NCBI GenBank assembly: GCA_016790165.1
Contig: JAEUPL010000025.1
Location: 1-64,000 of the forward strand
DNA: 64,000 bases
Reading direction: 5' to 3'
Origin: Burkholderiales bacterium
Lineage (GTDB): Bacteria > Pseudomonadota > Gammaproteobacteria > Burkholderiales > Casimicrobiaceae
Shown here: in pieces, positions 2,787 to 60,567 of the stretch
How the letters are laid out: each line of letters begins with the position of its first letter
How positions within the stretch are numbered: position 1 is the first letter of the stretch
Translations under genes and position numbers: made by a program
Notes under the pieces: generated by a model
Told to the model about the DNA's origin: nothing
Databases searched by the model: none
The model's input: only the letters and a program-made list of their open reading frames with translations

Positions 2787-3281
2787 CTACAGCGTGGCCG
2801 CGAGCGCGGCGAGTTGATCGGTGGCGACGCCCCAGCCCTGATGGAAGCCCATTGCCTCGTGCGCTGCGCAATCGTCGGCGCTCCAGTGACGCGCCCGTGC
2901 GGTGTAGCGCGTCTTGCCGTCTTCTTCCTCAAAGGTCAGGATGCAGGTGAAGAACGGTTTGCCGGACGGCACCCAGGCGCTCGTGTAAGCGTCGGTAAAC
3001 ACCAGTTTGCGGTTGGGAATGACCTCAAGATACACACCGCGGTTGGGCATCTGGGTGCCGTCCGGGCCCTGCATCACGATCGTGCTCGCTCCGCCCGCTC
3101 GAACGTCGGTTTCCGCGTGCACGGTCTTCCACGGGGGTGGTGTGAACCACTGCACCATCAATGCGGGTTCGGTCCAGCAGCGGTAGAGTTTTTCGCGGGG
3201 CGCGTCGATCAGGCGCGTGAGTACGAGTTCACGTGGCTCGGTATCGCCCGTCGCGGAGGCAGGTGGGGCGTCGATGGTCAT
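2787..3281 (-). CDS. AHSA1/SRPBCC domain protein
   Basis: 164 aa, start ATG with AAAGGAG. It shows 'ELVLTRLIDAPREKLYRCWTEP', 'QWFTPPPWKT', 'GRHW'-type ending ('ARARHWSADDCAAHEAMGFHQGWG') and other signatures of activator-of-Hsp90-homologue-like SRPBCC proteins. In bacteria these are often encoded directly behind a small regulator, as here behind a TetR gene 25 bases upstream. No chaperone partner role is established for bacterial members; a small-molecule-binding or stress-response role is inferred from the operon. Confidence 0.87.
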   Translation of the reverse strand: MTIDAPPASATGDTEPRELVLTRLIDAPREKLYRCWTEPALMVQWFTPPPWKTVHAETDVRAGGASTIVMQGPDGTQMPNRGVYLEVIPNRKLVFTDAYTSAWVPSGKPFFTCILTFEEEDGKTRYTARARHWSADDCAAHEAMGFHQGWGVATDQLAALAATL

Positions 3282-3306
3282 GCCAACTCCTTTACGATGC
3301 AATGCG

Positions 3307-3927
3307 TCACGATGGCAGCAGCGTTTCAATATGGGTGCGTAGCAAGTCAACGCAGGCGTGCGCGACCTGCGGACCACCCTGTGCCTTGGCGAGAATGAAC
3401 GCCCCCTGCAACACGGCCTGCGTGTAGAGCGCAACGGTCATGGCTTCCCATGGTGCATCCGGGGCGTAACGCGCTTTGGCCAGCGCCAGATCGGTGGCCA
3501 CCGTGGCCGCGTGGCCGCGAATGCCTCGCTCGCAGGCATCGCGCAGCACGGGATGCGTGGCAAACGTCTCCTGCACCATGGTGCCGAGCAGGCAGGTGAA
3601 GTCCTCCGGCGCGCCCTGCAACAACCGGGCACGAAAGTCGAGGTACGCGAGCACCCGTTCGCGCGGATCCTCTGGCGCGTGATACGGCGCCTGCGCAAAC
3701 AGCGCACCGGTCATTTCGTTCCAGTAGTCAATCGCCGCCAGGGCCAGCGCTTCCTTGCTCTTGAAGTGGTGAAAGAAGCTGCCTTTGGTCACACCGGCTT
3801 CGGCGCACAGATCGTCCACCGTCGTGGCCGGGTAGCCCCTGCCGCGAATGACGCGCAGCGCCGCATCCAGCAGACGTGTTCGAGCGTCACGTTCGGCAGC
3901 GGGTGGGTTTGGCGTACCGACAGGCAT
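3307..3927 (-). CDS. TetR/AcrR family transcriptional regulator
   Basis: 206 aa. The N-terminal helix-turn-helix is clear ('RTRLLDAALRVIRGRGYPATTVDDLC' split by the turn, then 'AGVTKGSFFHHFKSKEALALAAIDYW'). The C-terminal ligand-binding part is less conserved. The frame is open to a TTG at 3972, but a predicted -10 and a palindromic operator overlap that codon, so the ATG at 3927 is preferred. It is the first gene of a five-gene operon with AHSA1, SRPBCC and two VOC proteins, and probably represses its own operon through the palindrome at 3967-3982. The effector is unknown. Confidence 0.88.
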   Translation of the reverse strand: MPVGTPNPPAAERDARTRLLDAALRVIRGRGYPATTVDDLCAEAGVTKGSFFHHFKSKEALALAAIDYWNEMTGALFAQAPYHAPEDPRERVLAYLDFRARLLQGAPEDFTCLLGTMVQETFATHPVLRDACERGIRGHAATVATDLALAKARYAPDAPWEAMTVALYTQAVLQGAFILAKAQGGPQVAHACVDLLRTHIETLLPS

Positions 3928-3962
3928 CGGTGTGGTGGTGGTATCAAGCTCCGTTTTCGCCA

Positions 3963-3992
3963 ACTGTACCAACCAGTTGGTATGTTCGTCAA
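3963..3992 (-). promoter_or_regulatory. predicted promoter with overlapping palindromic operator for the TetR operon
   Basis: On the minus strand a -35 TTGACG (plus 3987-3992) and a -10 TACAGT (plus 3963-3968) are 18 bases apart. The spacer and -10 contain the inverted repeat TACCAACCAGTTGGTA (3967-3982; 7-base arms around CA), a typical TetR-type operator shape. Binding there would block polymerase, consistent with autorepression. The promoter match is by eye; the operator assignment is inference. Confidence 0.6.
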
Positions 3993-4442
3993 CGGCGGAC
4001 TATTGCCGGTTCACGGTACAGCTTTGTGCCGTTATCGACGGCCGCACGGCCTATTCGCCTCAAAAATTCAGTAGGTTGACTTTGTGTCAAATGTGGCTGC
4101 AATGACCGCGCTGCTGTCGATGGCAATGAAAAGTTATTGACCAACGCTCGTCCGGACGTTTCATGACGTCGCTGCAAAAGCGGTTGCGCGCAGTTGTGGA
4201 TGCGCGTTCGCCCATTCCCGCGTCGAATCCGCTGGACTCTCTGCAGCGTGCGCAGCGGCGAGGTGTGGGCGCATGTGACGGCGCCTCCCGTCCCCCTAAC
4301 TCGATGCGGCTCCGACCGAGTGGATCTCCGCTTTCGCATGCCTCGGTCGCAGCTGATTTCCCACCCGCTCATGGCGTGGTCGGCAGCGCACCCCGTGCAC
4401 GGAGCGACCTGCGGGCGAGGCGTTCCACCGGAGAGACCCGCA
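3993..4442. other. gene-free stretch between divergent operons
   Basis: About 450 bases separate the TetR promoter from the promoter of the molybdenum hydroxylase/sox operon. Open frames here lack family resemblance. No strong hairpin or repeat was recognised. It could hold upstream activator sites for the rightward operon. Confidence 0.4.
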
Positions 4443-4473
4443 TTGACAGGCGGGCGGCCCGCGCGCGGATAAT
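4443..4473 (+). promoter_or_regulatory. predicted sigma70 promoter of the iorAB-like/sox operon
   Basis: A perfect -35 TTGACA (4443-4448) and a -10 GATAAT (4468-4473, five of six consensus bases) are separated by 19 bases, slightly long. Transcription would start near 4480, giving a short leader with GGAG just before the ATG at 4500. Identified by eye only. Confidence 0.5.
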
Positions 4474-4499
4474 GCGGCTTTCCCCCCTCGGAGCTCGCC

Positions 4500-5042
4500 A
4501 TGCCAACACTCAATGTCAACGGCAAGTCGCTGGACTACGCGGCAGACGACGGCACCCCGCTGTTGTGGGTACTACGCGAACAATTGGGCCTGACCGGCAC
4601 CAAATACGGCTGCGGCGTGGCTCAGTGCGGCGCCTGTACCGTGCACATTGACGGCGTGCCAACGCGCTCGTGTGCCGTTCCGGCGGCGAGCGTGAAGGCC
4701 GCGCAGAAGATCACCACCATCGAGGGGCTGTCAAAGGATGGCACGCACCCGGTGCAGCGCGCCTGGCAAGCGCTCGACGTGCCGCAGTGTGGTTTCTGCC
4801 AGTCCGGCATGATCATGGCGGCGACGGCACTCTTGAAAGACAAACCGACCCCGACCGACGCCGACATCGACGCCGCGATGACCAACATTTGCCGATGCGG
4901 GACGTACAACCGCGTCCGCGCCGCGATTCACGTCGCCGCCAAGGAGATGGCCGCGGCGAAGAGCGGCGGCAAGATGCACAGCAAGGCAGAGCTCGGCAAG
5001 TCTGCGCTCAACATTGAGCATGTGGAAGGAGCCAAGGCATGA
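4500..5042 (+). CDS. (2Fe-2S)-binding subunit of a xanthine-dehydrogenase-family molybdenum hydroxylase (IorA-like)
   Basis: 180 aa. The N-terminal plant-ferredoxin-type cluster has Cys38, 43, 46 and 58 ('[15 protein letters not shown]'); the C-terminal four-helix cluster has Cys97, 100, 131 and 133 ('QCGFCQSGM', '[10 protein letters not shown]'). This is the usual two-cluster small subunit of isoquinoline 1-oxidoreductase or aldehyde dehydrogenase type enzymes, carrying electrons from the molybdenum site. A C-terminal tail of about 30 residues after the second cluster is longer than in many relatives. It overlaps the large subunit by ATGA and has no signal peptide, so it is presumably carried through the Tat system by its partner. 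Confidence 0.92.
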
Positions 5043-7261
5043 GTTCCCCTAAAGCCGACACCGCACGTACCGATGCACCCGCACGCGTGAGCCGACGCAA
5101 CTTCCTCAAACAAAGCGCCGGTGCCACCGGCGGCCTGGTGCTGGGCTTTCACTTGCCGCTCATGGGCCAGCAGGCGCTGGCGCAAGGCGCCGCCGCAGCG
5201 AACACGCCGCCTGAGATCAACGCCTGGGTCGTCATCCAGCCGGATGACCGCGTGGTCATCCGCATCGCCCGCTCCGAGATGGGCCAGGGCACGTTGACCG
5301 GCCTCGCCCAACTCGTCGCCGAGGAACTCGAATGCGACTGGGCAAAAGTTGCCACTGAGTACCCGACGCCGGGGCAGAACCTCAAACGCGAGCGCGTCTG
5401 GGGCGACTTCTCCACCGGCGGCAGCCGCGGCATTCGGCAATCGCAGGACTATGTGCGCAAGGGCGGCGCAGCCGCGCGTATCGCGCTCATTCAGGCGGCG
5501 GCAGACGGCTGGAAAGTTCCCGCCGGCGAGTGCACGGTCAGCAAAGGCGTGATCACGCACGCGGCCAGCAAGCGCAGCACTACGTACGGAAAAGTTGCCG
5601 TCGCCGCGTCCAAACTCGCGCCCGCGAAGGACATCACGCTGAAACCGGCGAAGGACTGGAAACTCGCCGGCAAGCGGCTAGCGCGCCTGGACACGGTGGA
5701 CAAAACCACCGGAAAGCAGGTCTACGGCATGGACCTTAAGCTGCCGGGCATGCTGAATGCGGCCATGGTGGACTGCCCGATTTTTGGCGGCAAGGTGAAA
5801 AGCTTCGACGAAGCCGCCGCGATGAAGCGGCCGGGCGTCAAGAAAGTAGTTCGCCTCGGTGACAGTGGTGTGGCGGTGATCGCCGACACGTGGTGGCGCG
5901 CCAAAACGGCGCTCGACGCCATGAACGTGCAATGGGACGGCGGCAGCAACGCCAGCGCCAACAGCGCCGCGTTCGCACAGGTGCTCGCTGAAGCGCTGGA
6001 AAGCACCGACGCCGCAGTCGGTAACGACGTTGGCAACGCTGTCAGTGCGATCGACAACGCCGCGCGGCGGATTGAAGCGGTGTACAGCTACCCGCATCAA
6101 AACCACGCCTGCATGGAAACGATGAACGCTACGGTGAAGTGGACGTCCGAGCGCTGCGAAGTCTGGCTACCAACGCAAAACGGCGAGGCCGCGCTGGCCG
6201 CAGCGGCAGAGGCTGCCGGCCTCAAGCCGGCGCAGTGCGAGGTGTACAAAATACATCTCGGCGGTGGCTTTGGTCGTCGCGGCGCGACCGACTATGTGCG
6301 CAAGGCGGTGGCCATCGCCAAGGAAATGCCGGGCGTGCCGATCAAGATGATCTGGTCGCGTGAAGAAGACATGGCACAGGGCCGCTTCCACCCGGTCACC
6401 CAATGCAAGCTGGTCGCAGGCCTCGACGACAAGGGCGAAATCACCGGTTTGCACATGCGCATTGCGGGACAATCCATCCTCGCCACGGTGAACCCGCAGA
6501 TGATCAAGGACGGCAAGGACCCGGTAGTGTTCCAGGGCCTGAACCCGCCGGGGCCGGAAGCCTCCATCGGCTACACCTTCCCGGCGATGCGCATTGACTA
6601 CGCGATGCGCAATCCGCACGTCCCGGCCGGCTTCTGGCGCGGCGTGAACCTCAATCAGAACGCGATTTATCTCGAGTGTTTCATCGACGAGATCGCGCAC
6701 GCCACCGGGCAAGACCCGCTCGCGCTACGTCGCAAGCTGATGAAGGCGCACCCCAAACACCTCGCCGTGCTCAACGCAGCGGCGGAGAGAGCGGGTTACG
6801 ATAAGCCGGCACCCGCAGGTGTGTTCCGTGGTCTCGCACAAACGATGGGCTTTGGCTCCTACGTGGCCGCCTGCGCGGAGGTTTCGGTCAGCAAAGCGGG
6901 TGAACTGAAGATTCACCGCATCGTCGCCGCGACTAACTGCGGACATGCCGTGAACCCGCAGCAGATCGAGGCGCAGGTGGAGGGCTCGTTTGTCTATGGC
7001 CTCTCGGCGGCGCTGTTTCAGGAATGCACAGTCAAAGACGGTCGCATCGAGCAGAGCAATTTCCACGACTACCCGAGTCTCAAACTGGCGCAAATGCCCA
7101 AGGTGGAAACCGTGCTGGTGCCGACCGGAGACTTCTGGGGGGGCGTCGGTGAACCGACCATCGCCGTGGCGGCACCCGCCGTACTGAATGCGATCTTTGC
7201 CGCCACGGGCAAACGCATTCGCGAGTTGCCGCTCAGCAAGCACAAACTCGCGAACGATTGA
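5039..7261 (+). CDS. Tat-exported molybdopterin-binding subunit of a molybdenum hydroxylase (IorB-like)
   Basis: 740 aa. The N-terminus has a twin-arginine signal ('[12 protein letters not shown]') ending near ALAQG. The molybdenum-binding domains are recognisable: '[21 protein letters not shown]', '[13 protein letters not shown]', '[19 protein letters not shown]' and '[19 protein letters not shown]' with the conserved catalytic Glu region (GEP). Relatives are periplasmic, membrane-associated dehydrogenases of N-heterocycles or aldehydes that pass electrons to cytochrome c subunits. No such separate subunit lies here; instead soxXYZA follows at once. The enzyme class is secure. The substrate is unknown, and the link to Sox is inferred from operon structure. 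Confidence 0.9.
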
Positions 7262-7278
7262 CAGGCGTTGACCGCGCA

Positions 7279-7746
7279 ATGGCGCATCCACCGCCGCGTC
7301 TACGCCGGCCGTCGCGCTTTGGCGCGGCCGCGGTGGCGGGTCGGCTCGCGCTGTGCGCGGCTGCAGGCGCAAGCACAGTGGCGGCTACACCGGGCGATGG
7401 CATCGCCGAGCCGTTGACGACGACGGCGGCCAGCGCCGAACGCGGGCGAGCTCTCGTCGCCAACCGGCAGCAGAGCCTGTGCGTGCTCTGCCATCAGGTG
7501 CCGCTGCCCGAGGTGCGTTTTCAGGGCGACATCTCGACCAATCTGGCGGGCGCCGGCGCGCGTTGGTCGGCAGCGCAAATGCGGCTGCGACTGGTCAACC
7601 CGCGAGCGCTGAATCCCGACTCAATCATGCCTGCCTACTTCACGACCGCGCCGCGCTCGCGCGTCGGCGTGGCCTGGCGCGACAAACCGATTCTTGATGC
7701 GCAACAGATTGAGGACGTGATTGCATGGCTGCAAACACTGCGATAG
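7279..7746 (+). CDS. soxX: SoxX-like monoheme cytochrome c
   Basis: 155 aa from ATG 7279 (a TTG at 7258 overlapping the previous stop is possible). A basic then hydrophobic leader suggests Sec export. One heme motif 'CVLCH' and a Met-ligand segment 'DSIMPAYF' fit SoxX, as do 'QGDISTNLAGAGARW', 'RLRLVNP' and the ending 'KPILDAQQIEDVIAWLQTLR'. In classical Sox systems SoxXA joins thiosulfate to the SoxY cysteine. Here it lies 17 bases after a molybdenum hydroxylase and overlaps soxY by 22 bases. It may instead, or also, take electrons from that enzyme. Confidence 0.88.
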   Translation: MAHPPPRLRRPSRFGAAAVAGRLALCAAAGASTVAATPGDGIAEPLTTTAASAERGRALVANRQQSLCVLCHQVPLPEVRFQGDISTNLAGAGARWSAAQMRLRLVNPRALNPDSIMPAYFTTAPRSRVGVAWRDKPILDAQQIEDVIAWLQTLR

Positions 7747-8195
7747 CGCGTCGAACCGCGTTGCGCGCCGCCGCGGGCGCCGCCCTGATGTTTGCACTAC
7801 GCCCCGTCAACGCGGCGATCGCCACGGCACCAATTCTCGGCGAACTCGCCTTTGCCTACGCTGGCCCCAAAGCGACACTGCGCGAAGCCCGCGTCAAGCT
7901 CGATATCACGCCACTGGTGGAAAACGGCAACAGCGTGCCGGTGACGATCAGCGTGGACAGCCCCATGACGGCGAACGAACACGTCGTCGGCATCGCGCTG
8001 TTCAGTGAGAAGAACCCGCAGAACGATGTGGCGCTCTTTGCGCTCACACCGCTGTCGGGGCGAGCGCAGGTGTCCACGCGGATTCGCCTCGCGACTTCGC
8101 AGCAGTTGATGGCGGTGGCGAAAATGAACGACGGCAGTTGCTGGTCGCACACGGTGGAGGTGGTCGTGACCACCGCATCGTGCGTGGAGGAGTAA
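7725..8195 (+). CDS. soxY: SoxY-like sulfur carrier subunit with altered C-terminal arm
   Basis: 156 aa. The leader has consecutive arginines ('ARRTALRAAAGAALMFAL'), suggesting Tat export. The core matches SoxY: 'ENGNSVPVTISVDSPM', 'EKNPQNDVALFALTP', 'GRAQVSTRIRLATSQQLMAVAKMNDGS'. Classical SoxY ends in GGCGG, whose Cys carries sulfur on a flexible glycine arm. This protein ends 'TTASCVEE': a cysteine (Cys153) remains four residues from the end, but the glycines are gone and two acidic residues follow. Cys also occurs after 'DGS'. It overlaps soxX and is 5 bases before soxZ. Family certain; carrier function with thiosulfate doubtful. Confidence 0.85.
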   Translation: MAANTAIARRTALRAAAGAALMFALRPVNAAIATAPILGELAFAYAGPKATLREARVKLDITPLVENGNSVPVTISVDSPMTANEHVVGIALFSEKNPQNDVALFALTPLSGRAQVSTRIRLATSQQLMAVAKMNDGSCWSHTVEVVVTTASCVEE

Positions 8196-8200
8196 CGACG

Positions 8201-8563
8201 GTGGCGCGTGCGTTGATCACGATGCCAAAGTCTGCGCGTCTGGGCGAGATCATCGAGGTTCGCGCGCTGGTGCAGCATGCGATGGAAACCGGCTATCGGC
8301 GCGACAGCGACGGCTCGATGCTCCAGCGCGATTTGATTCGCCGTTTCAGTTGCAGTTTCGCCGAGGCCGTGCGGTCGGACGGCACGCGTGCCGCGCCGGG
8401 CACGCGCGTGGTGTTCGCCGCCACGCTCCATGCAGCCATCGCAGCGAATCCGTATTTCTCGTTTTACTTCCGCGCAGAGAAGAGCGGCACATTGATATTT
8501 CTATGGGAAGGGGACAACGGCTTCGCACATCGAGAGCAGGCAACCCTGATGGTAAATGCGTAG
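8201..8563 (+). CDS. soxZ: SoxZ-like protein, partner of SoxY
   Basis: 120 aa from GTG 8201, preceded by GGAGGAG. It begins 'ARALITMPKSARLGEIIEVRALVQHAMETGYRRD' (split: 'GEIIEVRALVQHAMETGYRR' is the SoxZ hallmark) and ends 'SGTLIFLWEGDNGFAHREQATLMVNA'. Compared with the usual length of about 105 residues it has roughly a dozen extra residues around 'AVRSDGTRAAPGTR'. SoxZ normally forms a heterodimer with SoxY in the periplasm and presents it to the other Sox proteins. Overlaps soxA by 8 bases. Confidence 0.88.
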   Translation: MARALITMPKSARLGEIIEVRALVQHAMETGYRRDSDGSMLQRDLIRRFSCSFAEAVRSDGTRAAPGTRVVFAATLHAAIAANPYFSFYFRAEKSGTLIFLWEGDNGFAHREQATLMVNA

Positions 8564-9341
8564 GCTCTGCACCGTGCTATTGCTGCTGGCGAGCGGCAGC
8601 ATGTACGCCCAAAACTCACCCGAGATGCGGCGCTCGGGCATCACCTACACCAGCCCCGGCACGCAAGCGCTGCAAGCCGACGACAGCCAGAATCCCGGCA
8701 TGCTCTGGGTGCGTGATGGTGCGCAGCGCTGGACCATACCCAGCGGAGATGCGCGCAAGTCCTGCGCCGATTGTCATGGCGCGATTGCAACGATGCGCGG
8801 AGTCGCCGCGCGTTACCCTGCGGCATCGCCATCATCCGGATCGGCTGCGTCGGCAGCAGGCCGCGTGATCACGTTAAGCCAGCAAATCAATCGCTGCCGC
8901 GTTGAGCAGCAAAGGGCTCCCGCGTGGCCGCCGGAGCATGCCGATCTGCTCGCGCTGGAAAGTGCGATCGCGTTCGAAAGTCGTGGCCTGCCGATGGCGC
9001 CGCCCGCCCAGCCCGCACTCAGCGCCGCCCAGACGCGCGGCGAGGCGCTCTACCGCCAGCGCATCGGACAAGTTGACCTCAGTTGCCACGACTGCCATGA
9101 TCGACTCGCTGGCAAGAAGCTGGGCGGTAACACCATCCCGCAGGGGCACGTGACGGGCTATCCGATCTATCGCCTCGAGTGGCAAGCCGTGGGCAGCCTG
9201 CAACGGCGCATGCGCGGCTGCATGACAGCCGTGCGCGCGGAGCCGTATGCGTGGAATGCCCCCGAGCTCGTTGACCTGGAAGCCTGGCTCGCGAAACGCG
9301 CCGCCGGCATGCGGATCGAAAGCCCCGGCGTTCGGCCTTAG
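8556..9341 (+). CDS. soxA: SoxA-like diheme cytochrome c
   Basis: 261 aa with a signal peptide (MRRLCTVLLLLASGSMYAQ). Two heme motifs are present: 'CADCH' (Cys70-His74) and 'CHDCH' (Cys177-His181). The conserved active-site cysteine lies in 'RRMRGCMTAVRAEPY' (Cys222), followed by the usual 'ELVDLEAWLAKRAAG' tail. So the catalytic elements that conjugate a sulfur substrate to SoxY, together with SoxX, appear intact. It is the last gene of the six-gene operon; no soxB, soxC or soxD follows. Confidence 0.9.
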   Translation: MRRLCTVLLLLASGSMYAQNSPEMRRSGITYTSPGTQALQADDSQNPGMLWVRDGAQRWTIPSGDARKSCADCHGAIATMRGVAARYPAASPSSGSAASAAGRVITLSQQINRCRVEQQRAPAWPPEHADLLALESAIAFESRGLPMAPPAQPALSAAQTRGEALYRQRIGQVDLSCHDCHDRLAGKKLGGNTIPQGHVTGYPIYRLEWQAVGSLQRRMRGCMTAVRAEPYAWNAPELVDLEAWLAKRAAGMRIESPGVRP

Positions 9342-9488
9342 GCTCGGTCGTCAACCGGTGGCATACGCGCTGGCGCAGCATCGACGACATTTCAGATTTT
9401 CCCGATGTCCCGATCACGTCATCGAACCCGTCTAGAAATTCAGGACTGCGCGGCCAGGCTTCTTCCGCACCGATCTTGGATACCCGTG

Positions 9489-10073
9489 ATGCCCCGTCGC
9501 CCCCGTTGCCGCTCGCCTCGCTTTGCTCTCCTCAGCGCGCTGCGCGTCGCGTTGATTGCCGCGGCCTTACCGCTGATCGCGCCGCTTGCGGCCGCGCTGG
9601 CACCGTCGAACCCACCCAAGACAACCAGCGCAGCCACCATCACGATTTCAGGCAACGAGCAGCTCGCCCACCCCGTCGTCAGCGGTCGACTTGGGCCGTG
9701 GCGGCGAGCCGAACTATGGCTGACCCAGTCGAACGACGTCGACGACGCGCCGTTTCGCGGCCGTGTCGTCATTGCGGGCACGCCGGCCACGATTCACACG
9801 CTACCGCCGCCGGATGAAACCGGGAGCAACTTCATGATGAAGGTGCGCGCCGTGATGTTTCGTCAGATCGGAACCTCCGCCGAGCGTGCGTTGATCGTGC
9901 TGTATTCGGCCACGCAAATTGGGCCGCAGCAGACACCGTATTACGGCGCCTGCGTTTACCGCTGGAATGGCAACGCGTTCGTGCGCGCTGACGCCGTGGA
10001 GAAGCAGCTCGCTGGCGCGCGCACTGCAGCCGAGGTCACGCGGCGACTCGCCTCTGGAGGATCCGCCAAGTGA
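9489..10073 (+). CDS. exported protein of unknown function upstream of a muramidase
   Basis: 194 aa. The start at 9489 gives a basic N-terminus and a hydrophobic signal segment ('RFALLSALRVALIAAALPLIAPLAAALA'-like region, about residues 11-38). The mature part contains 'GPWRRAELWLTQSN' and 'MMKVRAVMFRQIG' and ends 'RRLASGGSAK'. No family was recognised. It overlaps the next gene by GTGA, so the two are almost certainly co-translated. An exported small protein coupled to a lysozyme-like enzyme could be an immunity or inhibitor protein, but nothing in its sequence proves that. Confidence 0.6.
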   Translation: MPRRPRCRSPRFALLSALRVALIAAALPLIAPLAAALAPSNPPKTTSAATITISGNEQLAHPVVSGRLGPWRRAELWLTQSNDVDDAPFRGRVVIAGTPATIHTLPPPDETGSNFMMKVRAVMFRQIGTSAERALIVLYSATQIGPQQTPYYGACVYRWNGNAFVRADAVEKQLAGARTAAEVTRRLASGGSAK

Positions 10074-11062
10074 GCTTCTCCGTCGTTGCGCTCTTCTCGG
10101 CAGTCGAAAACAGCAACTTTCCCGGTCTGTGGTCGCAATTCCAGCAGATGACCCAGGAGGAGATCGTCGCTGCAGGTACGGCCATTGGTCCTGACCGCTT
10201 GCGTGAGTTGCTCTATCGATTCGTCCGTCAATCGAGGATGCCCGCGCCGCCGTTTTCGCCGTTCAGCCCCGGCGCACCCCTGCCGATGAGCTCGCCAGCC
10301 GCCGCCGACCCGGCGCTGGTGATTCCGGCCGTGCTTTCGGTTGCATTCAAGGATCACTTGTTTCTTGGCCCGCAGAACAGCACACAGCAGCTAGCGGGCA
10401 TTCGTCTGCTACTCAACGCTGTGCACGGCCGGCGTGCCGGGGCGCCTCAGGTTGTCCTGTTCCGGGACGTGACCCGTACCCTGCCATCGCCCAGCGCCTG
10501 CCCCGCGCCGCTCAGCGACGCCAACTACGCCGATGTCGCCACGCGGCAGAACATCACCGTCGCGGCGATCAAGGCGGTGGCCCAAGTTGAATCCGGTGGT
10601 CGCAGTGGATTTGATGAGCAATTCCGGCCCAAGATCCTGTTTGAAGCGCATCACTTCCGCAAGCACACCGGGCGGCTGTTCGATCTGTCGCATCCACACT
10701 TGTCGTGCAACCGAACGGCCGCCAAGAAGTATTACGGTTGGGACCAATACTCGCGGCTCTATGAGGCGATGGTGCTCAACCCCGTGGCAGCCATCAAGTC
10801 GGCCTCGTGGGGCAAGTTTCAGGTGCTCGGGTCAAATCACAACGGCTGGCCGGACCCGGTGTCGTTCGCGCGCGCCATGCAGGAATCCGAGAACAATCAC
10901 CTCAAGTCGTTCGAAGCCTACTGCGTCACCAACGGCCTCATCGTGCATCTGCGCAGCAAGAACTGGGCACGTTTTGCCGAAGGCTATAACGGCGCCAATT
11001 ACAAGGACTTCGACTACGACACCAAGATCGCCAACGCCTACAAAAAGTACGGCGGTACGTGA
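10070..11062 (+). CDS. N-acetylmuramidase-domain (DUF3380-type) protein
   Basis: 330 aa, GTG start overlapping the upstream stop. The C-terminal half (about residues 155-330) resembles the DUF3380/N-acetylmuramidase domain of phage endolysins: 'IKAVAQVESGGRSGFDE' with the likely catalytic Glu, 'PKILFEAHHFRKHTG', 'SASWGKFQVLGSNH' and 'FAEGYNGANYKDFDYDTKIANAY'. The first about 150 residues are not recognised and are not a signal peptide. No holin, spanin or other phage gene is near, so this is not an obvious prophage. With the coupled exported protein it may be an antibacterial effector pair or a cell-wall enzyme; that is inference. Confidence 0.75.
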   Translation: MSFSVVALFSAVENSNFPGLWSQFQQMTQEEIVAAGTAIGPDRLRELLYRFVRQSRMPAPPFSPFSPGAPLPMSSPAAADPALVIPAVLSVAFKDHLFLGPQNSTQQLAGIRLLLNAVHGRRAGAPQVVLFRDVTRTLPSPSACPAPLSDANYADVATRQNITVAAIKAVAQVESGGRSGFDEQFRPKILFEAHHFRKHTGRLFDLSHPHLSCNRTAAKKYYGWDQYSRLYEAMVLNPVAAIKSASWGKFQVLGSNHNGWPDPVSFARAMQESENNHLKSFEAYCVTNGLIVHLRSKNWARFAEGYNGANYKDFDYDTKIANAYKKYGGT

Positions 11063-11732: not shown

Positions 11733-12563
11733 CTACTGCGTGCGCACCAGTTCCGGCCCGAGCTTCGCGCCCAGCGCCTGCAACCCGGCGTGCAGTAGCG
11801 CATAGGCCGCATCCACGGCGTCGGGCGCGCCCTTCACGCCGAGGTCAATGTGCCGCCCGTACTGCGGGTGATCCACGCTCGGCAGACTGAACACCTTCAC
11901 GCCCGGATGATCGCGCTCCACGGCCTCCATCAGCGGCGTCAACGTCGCCTCCATCGCGCCGAAGACGATCACCGACTTCTCCACATAGGCATCGCGGCGA
12001 TGCAGGTGCGCGTACTTCGTATCGAGCAGCCCCTCGATCATCGGCCACGCCATCACCGGAAATCCGGGTACGAAATGCACGTCACCCACCGAGAAGCCCG
12101 GAATCTTGTTGTACGGGTTCGCGATGATCGTGGCGCCCTCGGGGAACACACCCATGTTGAGGCGATGCACGTTGTCGGCGCGGTCGGGCTCGTAGGGCAT
12201 GCCCTGCTCGCGCGCCACATCCTGCATGCGCTCGCGAATCAACGCCTCCGCCTCGGGGTGCAGCGCCAGCGGGACGCCAAGCGCCGCAGCCGCGCATTGC
12301 CGCGTGTGGTCATCCGGCGTCGCACCAATGCCGCCGGTGGAGAAAACAATTTCGCCCGCCTCACGCGAGCGCGCAAACGCACGCCGCAGCGCCGCCTCAA
12401 TCCGCGGCCGGTCATCGCCCACATACTCCGCTGAAGCCAGCGCCAGCCCGCGCGCTGCGAGCAGCTCGATCACTTTCGCCAAATGCTTGTCCTGGCGTTT
12501 ACCGGAAAGGATTTCGTCGCCGACGATGATGAGGGAGAAGTTGGGCTCAGCGCTACTGTTCAT
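11733..12563 (-). CDS. CinA-like / MoaB-fold molybdopterin-binding protein
   Basis: 276 aa. The N-terminal domain has the MoaB/MogA fold signatures 'LIIVGDEILSGKRQDKHL' and 'EIVFSTGGIGATPDDHTRQ', as in the COG1058 domain of CinA. It lacks the C-terminal nicotinamide-nucleotide amidase domain of full CinA, and its C-terminal part ('GVKVFSLPSVDHPQYGRHIDLGVKG') matches the stand-alone form. Start ATG at 12563 was preferred over an upstream in-frame codon. Stand-alone members lack a well-defined role. Single gene, not in an obvious operon. Confidence 0.85.
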   Translation of the reverse strand: MNSSAEPNFSLIIVGDEILSGKRQDKHLAKVIELLAARGLALASAEYVGDDRPRIEAALRRAFARSREAGEIVFSTGGIGATPDDHTRQCAAAALGVPLALHPEAEALIRERMQDVAREQGMPYEPDRADNVHRLNMGVFPEGATIIANPYNKIPGFSVGDVHFVPGFPVMAWPMIEGLLDTKYAHLHRRDAYVEKSVIVFGAMEATLTPLMEAVERDHPGVKVFSLPSVDHPQYGRHIDLGVKGAPDAVDAAYALLHAGLQALGAKLGPELVRTQ

Positions 12564-13233
12564 GGCGGCAAGGATAGCGCCTGCCAGGCGAACACCGGCG
12601 TGACCTGCTTTCGTGGGCACACGATGACATCACCACTTCCAACGCTGGACCAATTCCGTATGGAGATGCTCGCCGCTGGCTACGACGAAGTGCTCGAACG
12701 CCCGTGGGCGCCGGATACCGTGGTGGGCACCCACGCACCGGTTCGAAGCCAACGCCATCTTTGTGTACGGGGAAATGTGACAGGCTGTGGACGATGGCAT
12801 TGCACAACGATTGCTACCCGGCGACCGCTTTCACCTGCAGGCCAATGAGCCACACAGCGAGCGCTACGGACCGGAGGGTGCGACGTACTGAGTGACGCGG
12901 AAAGCCCTAACGCAACACGGCAGTAGCGCGGCTGCTTGCCGCCGGGAAGTGTGGCCGGGAAACCGCCGACGCGACCCCGGTTGCGAGCATCCGGGCTACC
13001 AGTTGTACGAACCAGGCGTGCTCCCTGGCACATCGCTCGCCGTGCGGGCAATTTTCACGATACCTGGCATGGCTTCGTTGCTGAGGCCGTAGACGATTTT
13101 TGGCATGGGTGGCGCTTGGTCTGGTGGGCCCTGGCTGCGCATTTCGCCTGTGCGGCGCGGGGGTTCGACGGATGGCGTTGACCCACGTGCGCTAGGACAG
13201 GTTCGAGAGATTCAGCCCGGGTTGCGACTTCTT
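12564..13233. other. gene-poor stretch with a decayed gene
   Basis: Between the CinA-like gene and the Fic gene. The left part holds the cupin pseudogene listed separately (12624-12906). From about 12910 to 13230 no intact gene was recognised; an open plus frame around 13045-13180 is rich in Trp, Ala and His and resembles no family I know. Confidence 0.5.
12624..12906 (+). pseudogene. decayed cupin-domain gene
   Basis: Translation from ATG 12624 gives 'LDQFRMEMLAAGYDEVLERP' and 'PDTVVGTHA', then needs a frame change near 12740 to continue 'FEANAIFVYGEM'. In that frame a TGA (12778-12780) sits where relatives have Trp. The frame then reads 'QRLLPGDRFHLQANEPHSER' and 'YGPEGATY' and meets a second TGA (12889-12891), again at an expected Trp, before 'VTRK'. 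One frameshift plus two probable TGG-to-TGA changes indicate a dead single-domain cupin. The cupin metal-site His/Glu pattern is still visible. Confidence 0.7.
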
Positions 13234-14412
13234 TCACGACCTGGAGATTGCCGCAGTCGTCGATTCGTAATGTTCAAAGCGATTTTCGTCGTGCGAGACG
13301 AGGCGCATTAACTTCGGATGAACAAACAGCTTGTCGCGACCGTATCGCCGCTCCTGCAACACGCCAATTTCCACGAGGGCTTTCAGGTAGCGGGACGCTG
13401 CCTGCCGTTGCACGATGCCGCTGTCGGACAAATTCTGGATGCGCGAGTATGGCGACACAAAGATCAAATCGACCAATTCGCGCGAGTAGATTTTGGGCGC
13501 GCGTTCCTTGACGTACGCCGCGGTGTGTTCCTGCAACTGCCGAATCGCGCTGATCTTGGCGGTGGTCCACAGCGCCGTCTCTTCCACACCTTTCAGAATG
13601 TAGAGCAGCCACGGCTCCCACGCCTGCTCACGCGTCACCGCCAGCAGCAGGCGATAGTAGTCCGGCTTGTTGCGGAGGATGTAGCGGCTCAGATAGAAGA
13701 TCGGCAGCGTCAGCAGTCCCTCTTGAATCAGGAACAGGCTATTGAGCACACGCCCCGTGCGACCGTTGCCATCGGTGAACGGGTGAATGGCCTCAAATTG
13801 GTAATGTCCGGCCGCCATGCGCACCAGCGGATCAAACTGTACCGCCTCGTGCATGAAGCGCTCCCAGTTGGCCAGCTTGCTGCGAATCACATCCTCGCCA
13901 GCGGGTGGCGTGTAGATCACCTCGCCCGTGCGGTCGTTTGCCAGCGTGGTGCCAGGCACGCGGCGCACGCTCATCTCCACGCCCTTGATGCGCGTGCAGA
14001 TTTGCTCCGCCGTGCGGGTGGTCAGCGGGCGGTCCGCCAGCGCGCGGTAGCCCTCCATCAGTGCCTGGCGATAACGCAACGCCTCGCGCGTTGCCGGGTC
14101 GGCCTGCGCTTCCGCCTCCTGATGGCGAAACAGGCTATCCGTCGTGGTGACGATGTTCTCGATCTCGGAGCTTGCCTGCGCCTCCAGCATCGGGAGCGTG
14201 TTGATCAGCATGGCCTGGTTGGGGATCAGTTCGGCCGCCTGCTTCAGCTCCGACAACCGCGAACGTGACTCAACGCATTGTTTTAGAACGGCTTTGGTCT
14301 CCAGCTCCTGTACTGGCGGCAGCGGCGGCAGCTCGTTATAGGGTGCGTTCGCGCGCCACGGCGGCGACGGCACGTTAAGGGTCATGTCTGAATTTTCAAT
14401 TTCTTGCGACAT
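13234..14412 (-). CDS. Fic family protein (AMP-transferase) with C-terminal winged helix
   Basis: 392 aa from ATG 14412; ATG 14385 is an alternative. The catalytic Fic motif '[12 protein letters not shown]' is intact. An inhibitory helix motif 'SSEIENI' before the core fits class II Fic proteins, where the Glu blocks ATP. The N-terminal '[10 protein letters not shown]...ETKAVLKQC' is the usual Fic_N region. The C-terminal part ('[20 protein letters not shown]') looks like a winged helix-turn-helix, suggesting DNA binding. The gene stands alone; its promoter carries four copies of a GCGACATA box, so autoregulation is plausible. Target protein unknown. Confidence 0.88.
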
Positions 14413-14483
14413 ATCTATGAGTGTATGTCGCAGCCAGCGACGCGTCAACGAAATATGTCGCCGTTTTGTATTTTTTGCGACAT
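14406..14483. repeat. four GCGACATA/TATGTCGC boxes at the Fic promoter
   Basis: Boxes at 14406-14413 (GCGACATA), 14424-14431 (TATGTCGC), 14454-14461 (TATGTCGC) and 14477-14483 (GCGACAT). Boxes 1 and 2 form one inverted pair and boxes 3 and 4 a second, oppositely oriented inverted pair. They cover the predicted -10, start point and upstream flank of the Fic gene, as expected of an operator array. Confidence 0.65.
14420..14448 (-). promoter_or_regulatory. predicted promoter of the Fic gene
   Basis: On the minus strand: -35 TTGACG (plus 14443-14448), 17-base spacer, -10 TACACT (plus 14420-14425). Start would fall at about 14412-14414, that is at the first ATG, so the mRNA would be leaderless, or start translation at ATG 14385. 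No good ribosome site precedes either ATG. Confidence 0.5.
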
Positions 14484-14924
14484 GACGAAGCGCTCGTGTC
14501 GTTCACGGCGACGTGTCGCCGCGGCGGGCATCCGTGTGCGTGTCCTCCGATGTGAAAAAGCCAGCGGCAGCCGGGCATCATGCGCGCCGGTCGGCTTGCG
14601 AGTGGGTCGGTGCCCCGCACAGCGCCTGCCTGCGGCGCGCCAACGCTCGCCCGCGTGCGCACGGAGCGGCCCCACCGTCAGCGCCGCTGGGTTTTCACGT
14701 CACGGCGGGGGATGTGGGGTACGACGCGGCTCGGATCAGCGAATGGCTATTCGCTGCCAATGACCGCCGGACGGAGCTCACTGGGCGATTTTTCCGCTAG
14801 TCGACTTGCTGAGTTTTCAGCGCGAAAGCACCGCCGGCTGGTCGCTAACGCCAAAAAGTTGTTTGGCGCAAACCGATCTGCGGTTTTGACGCAACCCACA
14901 GCGCGCCGCCCCCGCTCTCTCCGG
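14484..14924. other. gene-free stretch
   Basis: About 440 bases between the Fic operator region and an SDR gene remnant. Open frames are short and show no family resemblance. No repeat or RNA structure was recognised. Confidence 0.4.
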
Positions 14925-24153: not shown

Positions 24154-26340
24154 TCAGGGCGACGACGGCAACGCCTCATCGCGTCGCAAACGGGCGCGCG
24201 CCGCGCGATCCGCCGCCTGCAGCGCGGCTTCACGCAACCACGCGGACTCGATCGCCACGCCTGCTGCGGTCGTCGCACTGTAACGCGGTGGCACTGATTT
24301 CAACGTGCCTTCTGCCAGGTTGGCAAACACGATATCCGTGCGGTTGTTCGGGTCGCCCGTCACCTTGGCATACAGCGCACCAAAGCTGGTGCCGTGCCCG
24401 ATCAGCCCGTGATAGTCACCGACGAACCAGCCGTTGGCAAACGGCGCCTGCGTGATGTCGAACGCCGACTCGATGCCGCTTTCGCGCCAGTATTTGCCGT
24501 CGCTGGACGTCGCCAGCTGATAGGTGGTGGTCAGTGCGCCGACAGCGCTCGCAGCGCGCAGGTCAAAGTAACTTACACCGATGGTGCCATCGGGCCGAAT
24601 CGCGATCGTCGGCCCGAACGCAGCGACGTCGCCGCGTGCGTTGACGCGCACGGGTTCGCTCCAGGTGGCGCCACCATCTTTCGACGACGACAGCGCGATA
24701 CCGTCATGAGCGCCCTGCGAAAAGCGCGCGTCCTGCCACACCACAAACACTTCACCCGTCGGACTAACTGCCGCCGAGGGCAACCCTCGACTGTCGCGAA
24801 CGCGCCCGGCGACTGGGTCACTCACGCCCACCCCGAGGTCGAGCGCGATGGTGAGCGGCGTGCTCCAGCTCTGCCCGCGGTCGTTCGAGCGGATCACTCG
24901 CAGGTACGAGCCGCGTGCGCTGGCGGGTGTCGCCGTCCGGATGATGTCGGTGAAAAAATTGAGCAGGCTGCCGTCACTCAACACGATGATCTGGTTGCCG
25001 AACGTCTGGTTGGTACTGCCGGGGTCGTAGATGCTGCGCGCTGCCTCCCAGCTGGCACCGGCATTGGTGGTGCGGGCAAAGTACGCCGGGCCACCGCCGT
25101 TGGTGAGCAGTCGTCCCCACACGGCATAGACGTAGCGCGCATCCTGCGGATCGGCCACCATCATGTTCTTGTCGTTGAAGAAGGTGGCACCGGCATCACG
25201 GATCAGCGTCGTCGGCGCCCCCCAGGTGACGCCGCCATCGGCGCTACGCGCCACCAGCATGGCGCTGATTGAGCTGGGCGTCGATTCCTGCCCGCTGAAG
25301 CCCAACGCCATCTGGTAGGCCACACCGCCGGGGGCGATAGTCACCCAGGGGTCGGTCGCGCGCTCGTACTCGCCACCACCACACTGCGAGAACGCCGCGC
25401 GGCTGGACGCCCAGCTACTCCCCCCGTCGAACGACACTGCCGACGCCGTCCCGCGGGCGCCACCGTTGGCCCAGCGGTCCTGCTGCCACGCTGCGAGCAG
25501 GTGCTGGGAGTTGGACGGGTTCAGGGCGAGGTAGGGTTCGACCTCAGCGCCGATGTAGTTGGTACCACTCTGCGCGATGCTGCACGTCGACGAGAAGGGT
25601 GACACATTCGGCGCGGCCCCGGTCAGCACACGCTGAAAGCCCTGCTCCGGCGCTTGCGCAACGTCACTGGCCGTGGTTACACAAAAGGCGACGCCTTCCC
25701 CCGACCAGCCAGTGGCGAGCATCGCCTCATAGGTGGCACTGCTTGTGACATACCGATGATTGCTGGTGCGTCCGTTGGCATTCGATCGAAACAAGCGGTA
25801 GACGCGAACAGGAGCGCGGTCCGGACACGCGGAGGGGAAGGCTGTCGGGCTTGTTGTGAGCAGGTTGGCGACGGTGAAATCAAAACCCTCGTAGGTGAAG
25901 CTCGAAGGCAGTTGCGCCAACAACGCCTCGCAGTCGATACCCTCGCGCCCGTAGAAGTGCGAACTGGTGAACGCGCTCGCCGGACCAGGCACGCTGACGT
26001 AGAAGCGGCAGATGCGAACGTCGCCCGCGGTCGCGAACGCACCCGACGCGGCCACACCCGAAAACTGCATCCCGGTGCGACGAAAGTCTCGCGGCACCGC
26101 ATCCAGAGCTGCCTGCTCAGGCAACCGGCCAGTCATGACGTAGGCGTCAAGCGTCGCGTTGTAGTACTCGACCACCGTGACCGGGGCCGCACCCTGCGCC
26201 GCTGTAGTGGACACGACGATGATCGAGGCGGCTGCGACAAGCGCGCTCGCTTCGCGAGCGACGCGTCGACCGCACCGATCGATGGTCGATGTCAGGCGGC
26301 TACGGCAACGAGCCGTCGGCGAGATTGGCAACGCGCACAC
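24154..26340 (-). CDS. exported sialidase-fold protein with N-terminal DUF5648-like repeats (paralog 2)
   Basis: 728 aa from a GTG at 26340 inside the preceding gene; no ATG lies before the signal segment ('ALVAAASIIVVSTTAAQGA'). Two N-terminal repeats follow ('VVEYYNATLDAYVMTG', 'SSHFYGREGIDCEALL'; 'VYRLFRSNANGRTSNHRYVT'). The rest is a six-bladed sialidase/BNR-type domain with Asp-box-like motifs ('SFDGGSSWASS', 'SADGGVTWGAP', 'NDRGQSWSTP', 'SKDGGATWSEP'). The catalytic Arg triad and Tyr/Glu of true sialidases were not located, so activity is unknown. Same layout as its upstream neighbour. Confidence 0.8.
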   Translation of the reverse strand: MCALPISPTARCRSRLTSTIDRCGRRVAREASALVAAASIIVVSTTAAQGAAPVTVVEYYNATLDAYVMTGRLPEQAALDAVPRDFRRTGMQFSGVAASGAFATAGDVRICRFYVSVPGPASAFTSSHFYGREGIDCEALLAQLPSSFTYEGFDFTVANLLTTSPTAFPSACPDRAPVRVYRLFRSNANGRTSNHRYVTSSATYEAMLATGWSGEGVAFCVTTASDVAQAPEQGFQRVLTGAAPNVSPFSSTCSIAQSGTNYIGAEVEPYLALNPSNSQHLLAAWQQDRWANGGARGTASAVSFDGGSSWASSRAAFSQCGGGEYERATDPWVTIAPGGVAYQMALGFSGQESTPSSISAMLVARSADGGVTWGAPTTLIRDAGATFFNDKNMMVADPQDARYVYAVWGRLLTNGGGPAYFARTTNAGASWEAARSIYDPGSTNQTFGNQIIVLSDGSLLNFFTDIIRTATPASARGSYLRVIRSNDRGQSWSTPLTIALDLGVGVSDPVAGRVRDSRGLPSAAVSPTGEVFVVWQDARFSQGAHDGIALSSSKDGGATWSEPVRVNARGDVAAFGPTIAIRPDGTIGVSYFDLRAASAVGALTTTYQLATSSDGKYWRESGIESAFDITQAPFANGWFVGDYHGLIGHGTSFGALYAKVTGDPNNRTDIVFANLAEGTLKSVPPRYSATTAAGVAIESAWLREAALQAADRAARARLRRDEALPSSP

Positions 26341-28294: not shown

Positions 28295-28480
28295 AGGATT
28301 CGGTAGAGTTGACGCGCGCCACGCGTGTGCCGCGCCGCGAAGACACAAACGGGCGCAAAGCACAGCGCCGTCACCAGCCTCAGACAGATGCGGTCCGGGC
28401 AGACGGTGGGGACTCACTAGACTTTATGAATTTACACTGTTCAGTCTATTTTCGCCAGCCTGAGCGCTGCCTGAACACTC

Positions 28481-35250: not shown

Positions 35251-35391
35251 ATGTTTGCCAACCCGCGCCAAAGCGCGGCGGAGGGCATCCCCTACGGGGT
35301 CGTCATTCAGAACGACTTGCTCGACGCCCTGGCCACCGGCATGACCCTCCCGCTGGTGTCGGCAAGGGATGCGGTGCTGGCGGGGTTTTGA
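35251..35391 (+). pseudogene. truncated CcdB-like toxin gene
   Basis: 46 codons reading 'QYDMFANPRQSAAEGIPYGV' (including upstream codons) and 'VIQNDLLDALATGMTLPLVS', as in the first half of CcdB-type gyrase poisons, which are about 100 aa. The C-terminal half with the conserved end is missing; the frame closes just before the mod gene. With the antitoxin remnant upstream it is a decayed toxin-antitoxin pair. Confidence 0.6.
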
Positions 35392-35431
35392 CCGAGTGCC
35401 CGCAAGCGGCGGCTTGGGGATAATGCAGGGC

Positions 35432-60217: not shown

Positions 60218-60567
60218 CCCAGATTGATGAACACCTCACCGGCGTCAACCTTCACCGGAAAGCGCTGCGCACACCCCTGATCAGGGGCGACGGCCTCGCC
60301 GGATTTCAACTCGATCGTCCAGTTGTGAAGTGGGCACGCGACGCGTTCGCCGAAGATGATGCCCTGCGACAGCGGGCCGCCCTTGTGCGGACATTTATCC
60401 AGCAGCGCGAACACGGCGTCCTGATCGTTACGGAACACGGCCACATTGCCGCCCGCCTCCCTGCTGCGCTCGATCACGCGGGCGCCGAGTACCGGCAGCT
60501 CATCCAGTTTGCACACATAGCGCCAGCGCATAGCGGTTTCGATTGCACTCATCGTCATGCCATTCAC
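60214..60567 (-). CDS. nirD: nitrite reductase small subunit NirD
   Basis: 117 aa from a GTG overlapping nirB; ATGs at 60558 and 60552 are alternatives. Rieske-like fold with cluster ligands: 'DKCPHKGGPLSQGIIFGERV' and 'ACPLHNWTIELKSG' (Cys-His and Cys-His pairs). Unlike E. coli NirD, which lost the ligands, this version keeps a Rieske [2Fe-2S] site. Partner of NirB. Confidence 0.93.
   Translation of the reverse strand: MNGMTMSAIETAMRWRYVCKLDELPVLGARVIERSREAGGNVAVFRNDQDAVFALLDKCPHKGGPLSQGIIFGERVACPLHNWTIELKSGEAVAPDQGCAQRFPVKVDAGEVFINLG

Follow-up and report, generated by a model that had tools for sequence, protein, structure and literature searches.

A molybdenum hydroxylase gene pair joined to soxXYZA and a possible SoxB-independent branch of the Sox system

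Introduction

Sox genes are commonly read as a sign of thiosulfate oxidation. What, then, does a partial Sox set do in an operon with a molybdenum hydroxylase? This question is raised by a stretch of 64,000 nucleotides (hereafter the window) from a Burkholderiales bacterium of the Casimicrobiaceae (assembly GCA_016790165.1, contig JAEUPL010000025.1, positions 1 to 64,000), in which iorA, iorB, soxX, soxY, soxZ and soxA follow each other on the + strand at 4500-9341. The initial annotation of the window had offered two readings, either that SoxXA takes the place of a dedicated cytochrome and accepts the electrons of the enzyme, or that the enzyme acts on a sulfur compound bound to SoxY, and had taken either pairing to be new. 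The pairing proves to be real and to be conserved; among the papers returned by our searches of the open-licence literature, none describes IorAB with SoxXYZA in its title or the opening of its abstract. Here, we look at its genes, its recurrence and the genomes that carry it, and we weigh what the two halves of the operon could do together.

The six genes of the operon

The first gene, iorA (4500-5042), encodes the small [2Fe-2S] subunit of a molybdenum hydroxylase of the xanthine oxidase family (PF01799, Fer2_2; PF00111, Fer2). It is followed by iorB (5039-7261), which encodes the molybdopterin-binding large subunit (PF02738 and PF20256, MoCoBD_1/MoCoBD_2; TIGR01409) with a twin-arginine signal at RR19-20. 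The product of soxX (7279-7746) is a monohaem cytochrome c, recognized by the Pfam cytochrome c profile and by TIGR04485 (66.7 bits against a cut-off of 61), and soxY (7725-8195) encodes a carrier of the AACIE-arm type ending in TTASCVEE, with the arm cysteine at Cys153 (Pfam SoxY; TIGR04487, 182.8 bits against 172). The soxZ gene (8201-8563) starts with GTG, and its product scores 70 bits with PF08770 and 63.3 bits with TIGR04490, under the cut-off of 76. Finally, soxA (8556-9341) encodes a protein with two haem motifs, Cys114 and Cys222 (Pfam SoxA/TsdA; TIGR04484, 191.9 bits against a cut-off of 110). SoxX is the expected partner of SoxA, and SoxZ that of SoxY.

The genes are tightly packed: iorA and iorB overlap by 4 bases, a gap of 17 bases separates iorB from soxX, soxX and soxY overlap by 22 bases, soxY and soxZ are 5 bases apart, and soxZ and soxA overlap by 8 bases. 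The six genes and their spacings had been described in this way by the initial annotation and are borne out, the coordinates being the same and each gene being backed by Pfam or NCBIfam profiles.

Recurrence of the gene set in other genomes

Other genomes were then searched for the same order; loci are labelled L and genomes G, G000 being the source genome (41 contigs, 3.76 Mb). Among named genomes, a scan turned up nine SoxY relatives, and the six genes are in order in seven of them. The order is kept in Ramlibacter cellulosilyticus (L010), where iorB lies in two frames, and the remaining two relatives are on cut contigs, one of which (L007) retains the end of iorB. The other named relatives are Burkholderiales, Betaproteobacteria, Comamonadaceae and Nitrosomonadaceae bins. 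In three overlapping sets of genomes, TIGR04487 was matched over its cut-off in 1 of 369 genomes of the class, 25 of 399 of the order and 15 of 398 of the phylum, and many matches under the cut-off have an identical architecture. We took stretches around all matches of at least 79 bits in the order and class and, as a contrast, around some weaker ones; 12 more came from the phylum. IorAB with SoxXYZA (type A) was found at 57 loci, the window counted, of which 56 are distinct; in three (L141, L142 and L145) IorAB is divergent. IorAB with SoxYZ and no adjoining SoxXA (type B) was found at 26 loci. Five mixed or cut loci (L120, L140, L144, L151 and L167) are in neither count, and the carrier loci total 88. 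Thus the order is not unique to this assembly but recurs, Betaproteobacteria and Alphaproteobacteria included, and since it does so the pairing is more than a chance arrangement.

A gene for a protein like the flavoprotein of flavocytochrome c sulfide dehydrogenase (FCSD) is present in 13 of the 88 carrier loci, namely in 11 of the 12 outside the class (all except L205) and in L077 and L078 of the order. The Pfam FCSD profile confirmed it in three annotated alphaproteobacterial plasmids, from Neorhizobium galegae, Methylobacterium sp. NMS14P and Roseomonas marmotae, which are the only ones of the 12 loci outside the class that are assigned to the Alphaproteobacteria. We considered FCSD as a general mark of the alphaproteobacterial clusters and rejected it, L205 having none and the order loci L077 and L078 having one. 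In Neorhizobium, the large subunit IorB is split over two frames and unannotated; the cluster of Methylobacterium sp. NMS14P is annotated without a break.

Some loci depart from the common arrangement. In L096, a second cassette-type IorB frame (12478-14877) lies upstream of iorA-iorB-soxXYZA. In G607, one of the 67 carrier genomes described below, IorAB and SoxXYZA lie at the ends of two contigs (L232 and L128). In Sinorhizobium meliloti pSymA (L221, 7896-10337), SoxY-SoxZ is followed by an annotated c-type cytochrome and an NAD(P)/FAD-dependent oxidoreductase, and no SoxX, SoxA or SoxB is annotated in the 16 kb stretch.

Conserved residues and family membership

Residues were counted over the type A and B loci. 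For IorB, 7 of the 83 were omitted: L088, which is the contig of L004; L010, L126 and L217, with split frames; and L079, L114 and L143, cut or split. For SoxY, SoxZ, SoxA and SoxX, L088 alone was omitted. Eight cysteine columns of IorA are kept in 79 to 81 of 81 homologues. In IorB, RR19-20, Gln380, Arg413, Arg534 and Glu705 are present in all 76 homologues and Arg414 in 75 of them. We assign the roles of Gln380, Arg534 and Glu705 from the motifs of xanthine oxidase and take Glu705 to be the position of the active-site glutamate. The arm cysteine Cys153 of SoxY is invariant (82/82), as are the CxxCH haem motif and Met117 of SoxX (56/56) and both CxxCH haem motifs, Cys114 and Cys222 of SoxA (56/56). 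Residues 25-260 of SoxA align with 1h31, with Cys222, presumably the active-site haem ligand, opposite a cysteine of that structure. A cysteine mechanism for the SoxA family is treated in excerpts of PMC4423706.

The cysteines for two [2Fe-2S] clusters, the molybdenum cofactor domains and the active-site glutamate place IorAB in the xanthine oxidase family. The closest solved chain to IorB is 8gy3_C, the large subunit of an aldehyde dehydrogenase (residues 11-733, E 9e-81); no NCBIfam equivalog that would give a substrate class was reached, the best score being 179.1 bits against a cut-off of 780. The Sox half is identified by SoxX and SoxA, both over the cut-offs of TIGR04485 and TIGR04484, and by the conserved Cys222. 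The window SoxY falls under the true-SoxY profile TIGR04488 (88.3 bits against 125) and ends in CVEE, not GGCGG. Neither does it belong with the fused SoxYZ of quinoprotein systems (TIGR04557, 53.4 and 23.6 bits against 140), soxY and soxZ being separate genes. With its key residues kept, the Sox/Ior machinery looks competent, and judging from its family the molybdenum enzyme probably oxidises organic molecules.

The SoxY arm motif and IorAB

We compared the C-terminal arm of SoxY with the presence of a cassette-type IorB, that is, the IorB of these loci, after removal of duplicate SoxY ends, short search loci, L088 and L236. SoxY tails of the form C-x-[DE] have a cassette-type IorB in the same locus in 69 of 78 cases, against none of 28 for tails of the GGCG type and 19 of 29 for other forms; these loci were chosen by SoxY profile and are mutually related, so that a Fisher p value computed from them is no true probability. 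Nine loci with C-x-[DE] tails are exceptions. Two are cut at the contig start (L008 and L128), and the other seven are in G658, G462, G534, G496, G628, G714 and G747; the first six of these genomes have a cassette-type IorB elsewhere, with 56-67% identity. By comparison, among 14 non-carrier genomes with other SoxY-like matches, full-length IorB matches reach at most 43%, and a 112-residue piece at a contig end in G354 reaches 50%. These results indicate that the SoxY arm motif tracks the presence of IorAB. The arm motif, C-x-[DE] as opposed to GGCGG, is thus a simple marker that separates the cassette from canonical Sox.

The distances between IorB proteins follow those between the SoxY proteins of the same loci (r 0.67 over 76 loci, with a permutation maximum of 0.11), as common descent could also bring about. 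In a FastTree tree with few outgroups, the cassette IorBs form a group apart from three local paralogues.

Two further observations concern loci with the C-x-[DE] tail. In G747 (L236, on contig C95), only a 31-residue stretch of the IorB C-terminus is left upstream, beside soxX of a SoxXYZA that looks intact, an arrangement that would fit a loss of IorAB. Four loci of one family (f227; L103, L109, L112 and L121) have SoxXYZA with such tails and no IorAB in the stretch. Next to them lie a metallo-beta-lactamase-fold gene and, at three of these loci, an S-adenosylmethionine-dependent methyltransferase; each of the four genomes also has IorAB-SoxYZ at another locus.

SoxB, SoxC and the second sox cluster

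The initial annotation had found soxB and soxCD absent from the window. This is borne out, as the SoxB, SoxC and SoxD-like proteins of the same genome gave no tblastn match there, but it does not extend to the genome, in which contig C11 carries a canonical cluster of soxC, a SoxD-like cytochrome, soxY, soxZ, soxA, soxX and soxB. That the cytochrome is SoxD-like is our reading, as no family profile names it. On C11, the SoxY tail is GGCGG and SoxA contains a single haem motif; the window proteins have CVEE and two motifs, respectively.

A full, co-regulated soxB/soxCD set elsewhere, with the molybdenum enzyme transcribed separately, had been named among the findings that would count against the proposal. 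The source genome has a full set, but part of the carriers show no full-length SoxB. Among 67 carrier genomes (66 of the 80 searched with profiles, and the source genome), SoxB is over the cut-off in 48, and 19 have no full-length SoxB, one of which (G758) has a fragment. Twelve of these 19 genomes have a completeness of 90% or more and a contamination of no more than 5%. One genome, G505 (99% complete, 5% contaminated), has one SoxY-like protein, one SoxA and no SoxB, with SoxC over the cut-off. Judging from these gene contents, SoxB is dispensable for the IorAB-Sox cassette. We also compared the SoxB frequency with that in 80 non-carrier genomes of the order (55 over the cut-off); this comparison was dropped, as the control consists mostly of genomes with a SoxY match and is biased.

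The same counts bear on the idea that IorAB replaces SoxCD and oxidises a SoxY-bound sulfane, SoxB being provided by another locus of the genome. Like SoxCD, IorAB is a periplasmic molybdenum enzyme; the cassette comes without SoxCD, and 11 of the 48 SoxB carriers have no SoxC over the cut-off. However, 40 of the 67 carriers have SoxC over the cut-off, among them 37 of the 48 SoxB carriers, the source genome included, so IorAB is no general stand-in for SoxCD. Moreover, 19 of the 67 have no full-length SoxB to supply, and the IorB family is known for the oxidation of carbon, not of sulfur. We consider this replacement very unlikely.

Cytochromes and molybdenum cofactor genes

If SoxXA were the electron acceptor of IorAB, SoxYZ would be a bystander or would serve a second function. 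Several observations fit such a role: among the open reading frames (ORFs) and Pfam matches of the window operon there is no cytochrome gene besides soxX and soxA, the haem motifs of both proteins are invariant, and IorB is closest to the 8gy3 enzyme, which we take to have a cytochrome subunit. However, the 26 type B loci have IorAB and SoxYZ without an adjoining SoxXA, and in 23 of them no CxxCH ORF was found on the operon strand up to 9 kb from soxZ, several of the stretches being shorter than that. Six cassette-type IorAB pairs have no SoxYZ nearby (L226-L231). Four of these (L228-L231) have no CxxCH ORF in the stretch examined, while L227 has one about 5 kb away and L226 one of 90 residues 0.6 kb downstream. 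Outside the class, 7 of the 12 loci carry a further small CxxCH ORF in the vicinity of the operon, in addition to SoxXA. Finally, the invariant Cys222 of SoxA and the arm cysteine of SoxY would be superfluous to an acceptor.

Type B can nevertheless not be used as proof that SoxXA is needless: SoxA is present in all 32 genomes searched, the 26 type B genomes among them, and SoxXA could act there in trans. The proposal that SoxXA stands in for the dedicated cytochrome is thus weakened by the type B loci, the solo pairs and the extra CxxCH ORFs, with the constant presence of SoxA still in its favour, and we regard it as improbable.

XdhC is the usual chaperone for the sulfido ligand of the molybdenum centre. 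Another role for SoxYZ, with SoxXA, would be to service IorB by delivering or restoring this terminal ligand, or by protecting the enzyme from sulfur species. Type B, which consists of enzyme and carrier only, would suit this, and SoxYZ-like carriers beside pyrroloquinoline quinone (PQQ) dehydrogenases have been given accessory or protective roles in proposals found in excerpts of PMC12997753. Yet 68 of 69 carriers have XdhC over the cut-off and the last one has a weak match, a finding that makes delivery of the ligand by SoxYZ less likely, and IorB-like proteins are many where SoxY is scarce: G714 has 30 IorB-like match pieces against 3 SoxY-like matches. In G442 (1.9 Mb, one contig), both MoCoBD_2 matches lie within the cassette IorB, and XdhC is over the cut-off there as well. 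A service role therefore seems to us quite improbable. In genomes like G442, with the cassette IorB as the sole source of MoCoBD_2 matches, the function of the cassette is testable.

Genes for the cofactor also occur close to the operon: an XdhC-MobA fusion follows soxA in L203 (10591-13129) and L204 (10860-12368), with MoaA next in L203.

A carrier-bound substrate

Enzymes of the IorB family oxidise carbon, and SoxXA attaches sulfur nucleophiles to SoxY. From the gene content and the conserved residues, we tentatively favour a reading in which SoxY is charged by SoxXA with a sulfur compound that is not thiosulfate, and IorAB oxidises the molecule while the carrier holds it. The likeliest compound is an organic thiol or thione, which SoxXA would attach oxidatively to the cysteine in the arm of the AACIE-type SoxY. 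SoxYZ would then present it to IorAB in the periplasm in the manner of the Sox swinging arm, and IorAB would oxidise a carbon of the bound molecule with oxygen from water, the electrons leaving through its Fe-S clusters for the pool of cytochrome c. There would be no sulfonate to cut off and hence no need of SoxB. The leftover thiol or persulfide of SoxY might be reset by the FCSD-like protein that some clusters encode and, elsewhere, by proteins acting in trans. The fuller statement, that an organic sulfur compound loaded by SoxXA on the AACIE SoxY is oxidised there while covalently held, in a SoxB-independent branch of the Sox system, is one we advance with a little more hesitation.

Since SoxB appears dispensable, the arm cysteine is invariant and SoxYZ is kept with IorAB in type B, oxidation on the carrier is the most likely of the readings weighed here. 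Of the two first put forward for this operon, the action of the molybdenum enzyme on a SoxY-bound compound is the better-fitting one, and the tracking of the arm motif agrees with it.

Several points weigh against it. The linkage of arm motif and IorAB is no proof that SoxY docks on IorB, and the two could act in parallel on different products of one compound. The six solo pairs have IorAB without SoxYZ nearby. Most carriers, the source genome among them, also have SoxB, with which a side role in thiosulfate oxidation is compatible. In addition, we know of no precedent for molybdenum hydroxylation of a carrier-bound thiol.

Parallel action without contact would mean that another enzyme splits an organosulfur compound, IorAB taking the aldehyde or heterocycle and SoxXYZA, with or without the FCSD-like protein, the sulfide or thiol. 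The FCSD-like flavoprotein of 13 loci and the kinship of IorB with aldehyde dehydrogenase fit such a separate handling of sulfide and aldehyde. We looked among the flanking genes for a clue to the substrate, but clustering of neighbours and Pfam searches of the representatives gave generic genes: the 10 representatives annotated include TctC receptors, sensor kinases, ABC ATPases and SDRs, with no conserved splitting enzyme among the recurrent clusters. Only XdhC stands out from these; it flanks two solo IorAB pairs that are related (L222 and L223). Parallel action also leaves type B and the IorAB-tracking tail motif unexplained, and we hold it to be unlikely.

Upstream region and other genes of the window

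The operon had been placed behind one good promoter. The hexamers are there, as TTGACA-N19-GATAAT at 4443-4473 on the + strand, 5' of iorA, but the strength was overstated: the spacer is long, and the site is weak evidence that is absent from the list of our promoter scan, 19 bases being outside its range of 16-18. The scan found 2 promoter-like matches in 3000-11000, near the shuffled expectation (mean 1.2). A TetR-type regulator gene (3307-3972, - strand; PF00440, 65.9 bits) lies divergently upstream of the operon. The frame of cluster 97, which we take to be this gene, is also upstream in the congener locus L090 and is tabulated for no other IorAB locus.

Elsewhere, the window encodes a Fic/DOC protein of the SoFic type (13234-14448), two large BNR-repeat/DUF5648 proteins side by side (24154-28417), and a DNA methylase with a ResIII/DEAD protein (35369-40083) that resemble a type III restriction-modification system. 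A BFD-domain molybdopterin oxidoreductase and a NIR/SIR flavoprotein (57404-63032) are likely to serve nitrate assimilation.

Comparison with known systems

The window operon shares SoxXA and SoxYZ, with their key residues intact, with the canonical Sox system (SoxXA, SoxYZ, SoxB and SoxCD). It differs from it in having no SoxB or SoxC, a SoxY arm that is not GGCGG and a SoxA with two haem motifs, where the canonical SoxA of the same genome has one. SoxXYZA belongs here to a different and widespread unit, tied to a molybdenum enzyme from a family that oxidises carbon and present also in near-complete genomes without SoxB, so that counting soxXYZA in genomes or metagenomes can give a false picture. 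If SoxY does carry the substrate of the molybdenum enzyme, this would be the first case we know of in which a molybdenum hydroxylase acts on a carrier-bound molecule. It would also suggest that organic sulfur is processed along a route in the periplasm, with the Sox swinging arm recruited for this chemistry as a periplasmic counterpart of catalysis on carrier proteins.

With IorAB-type dehydrogenases and 8gy3_C, the operon has in common a two-gene molybdenum/[2Fe-2S] enzyme with a twin-arginine signal; unlike them, it has no dedicated cytochrome gene, is tied to SoxYZ and reaches no equivalog cut-off. Its SoxY is over the cut-off of the NCBIfam family TIGR04487, 'SoxY-related AACIE arm protein', whose name describes a like C-terminal arm; that name covers the SoxY-like protein alone and gives neither a function nor a link to IorAB. 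In Bradyrhizobium diazoefficiens, according to excerpts of PMC5748708, only soxY1 of two soxY homologues is essential for thiosulfate oxidation, which bears on the cassette only if soxY2 is of the AACIE type.

In SAR324, a flavocytochrome c beside SoxYZ was proposed as a possible new mechanism; the bins also have an isoquinoline 1-oxidoreductase, whose position relative to the sox genes is not stated in the excerpts of that paper (PMC4782131). As far as these excerpts go, an FCSD with SoxYZ and no full Sox set resembles the FCSD-like gene of the 13 cassette loci, whereas the window, unlike SAR324, has no FCSD match.

The TIGR04557 carrier (PP_2677, ped cluster) is likewise a SoxYZ carrier beside periplasmic dehydrogenases. 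In the excerpts of PMC12997753, these systems have a fused SoxYZ, PQQ enzymes and a SoxH-like hydrolase, where the window has separate SoxY and SoxZ, a molybdenum enzyme and SoxXA. On the evidence of those excerpts, the functional precedent nearest to the operon described here is that of SoxYZ-like carriers next to PQQ dehydrogenases.

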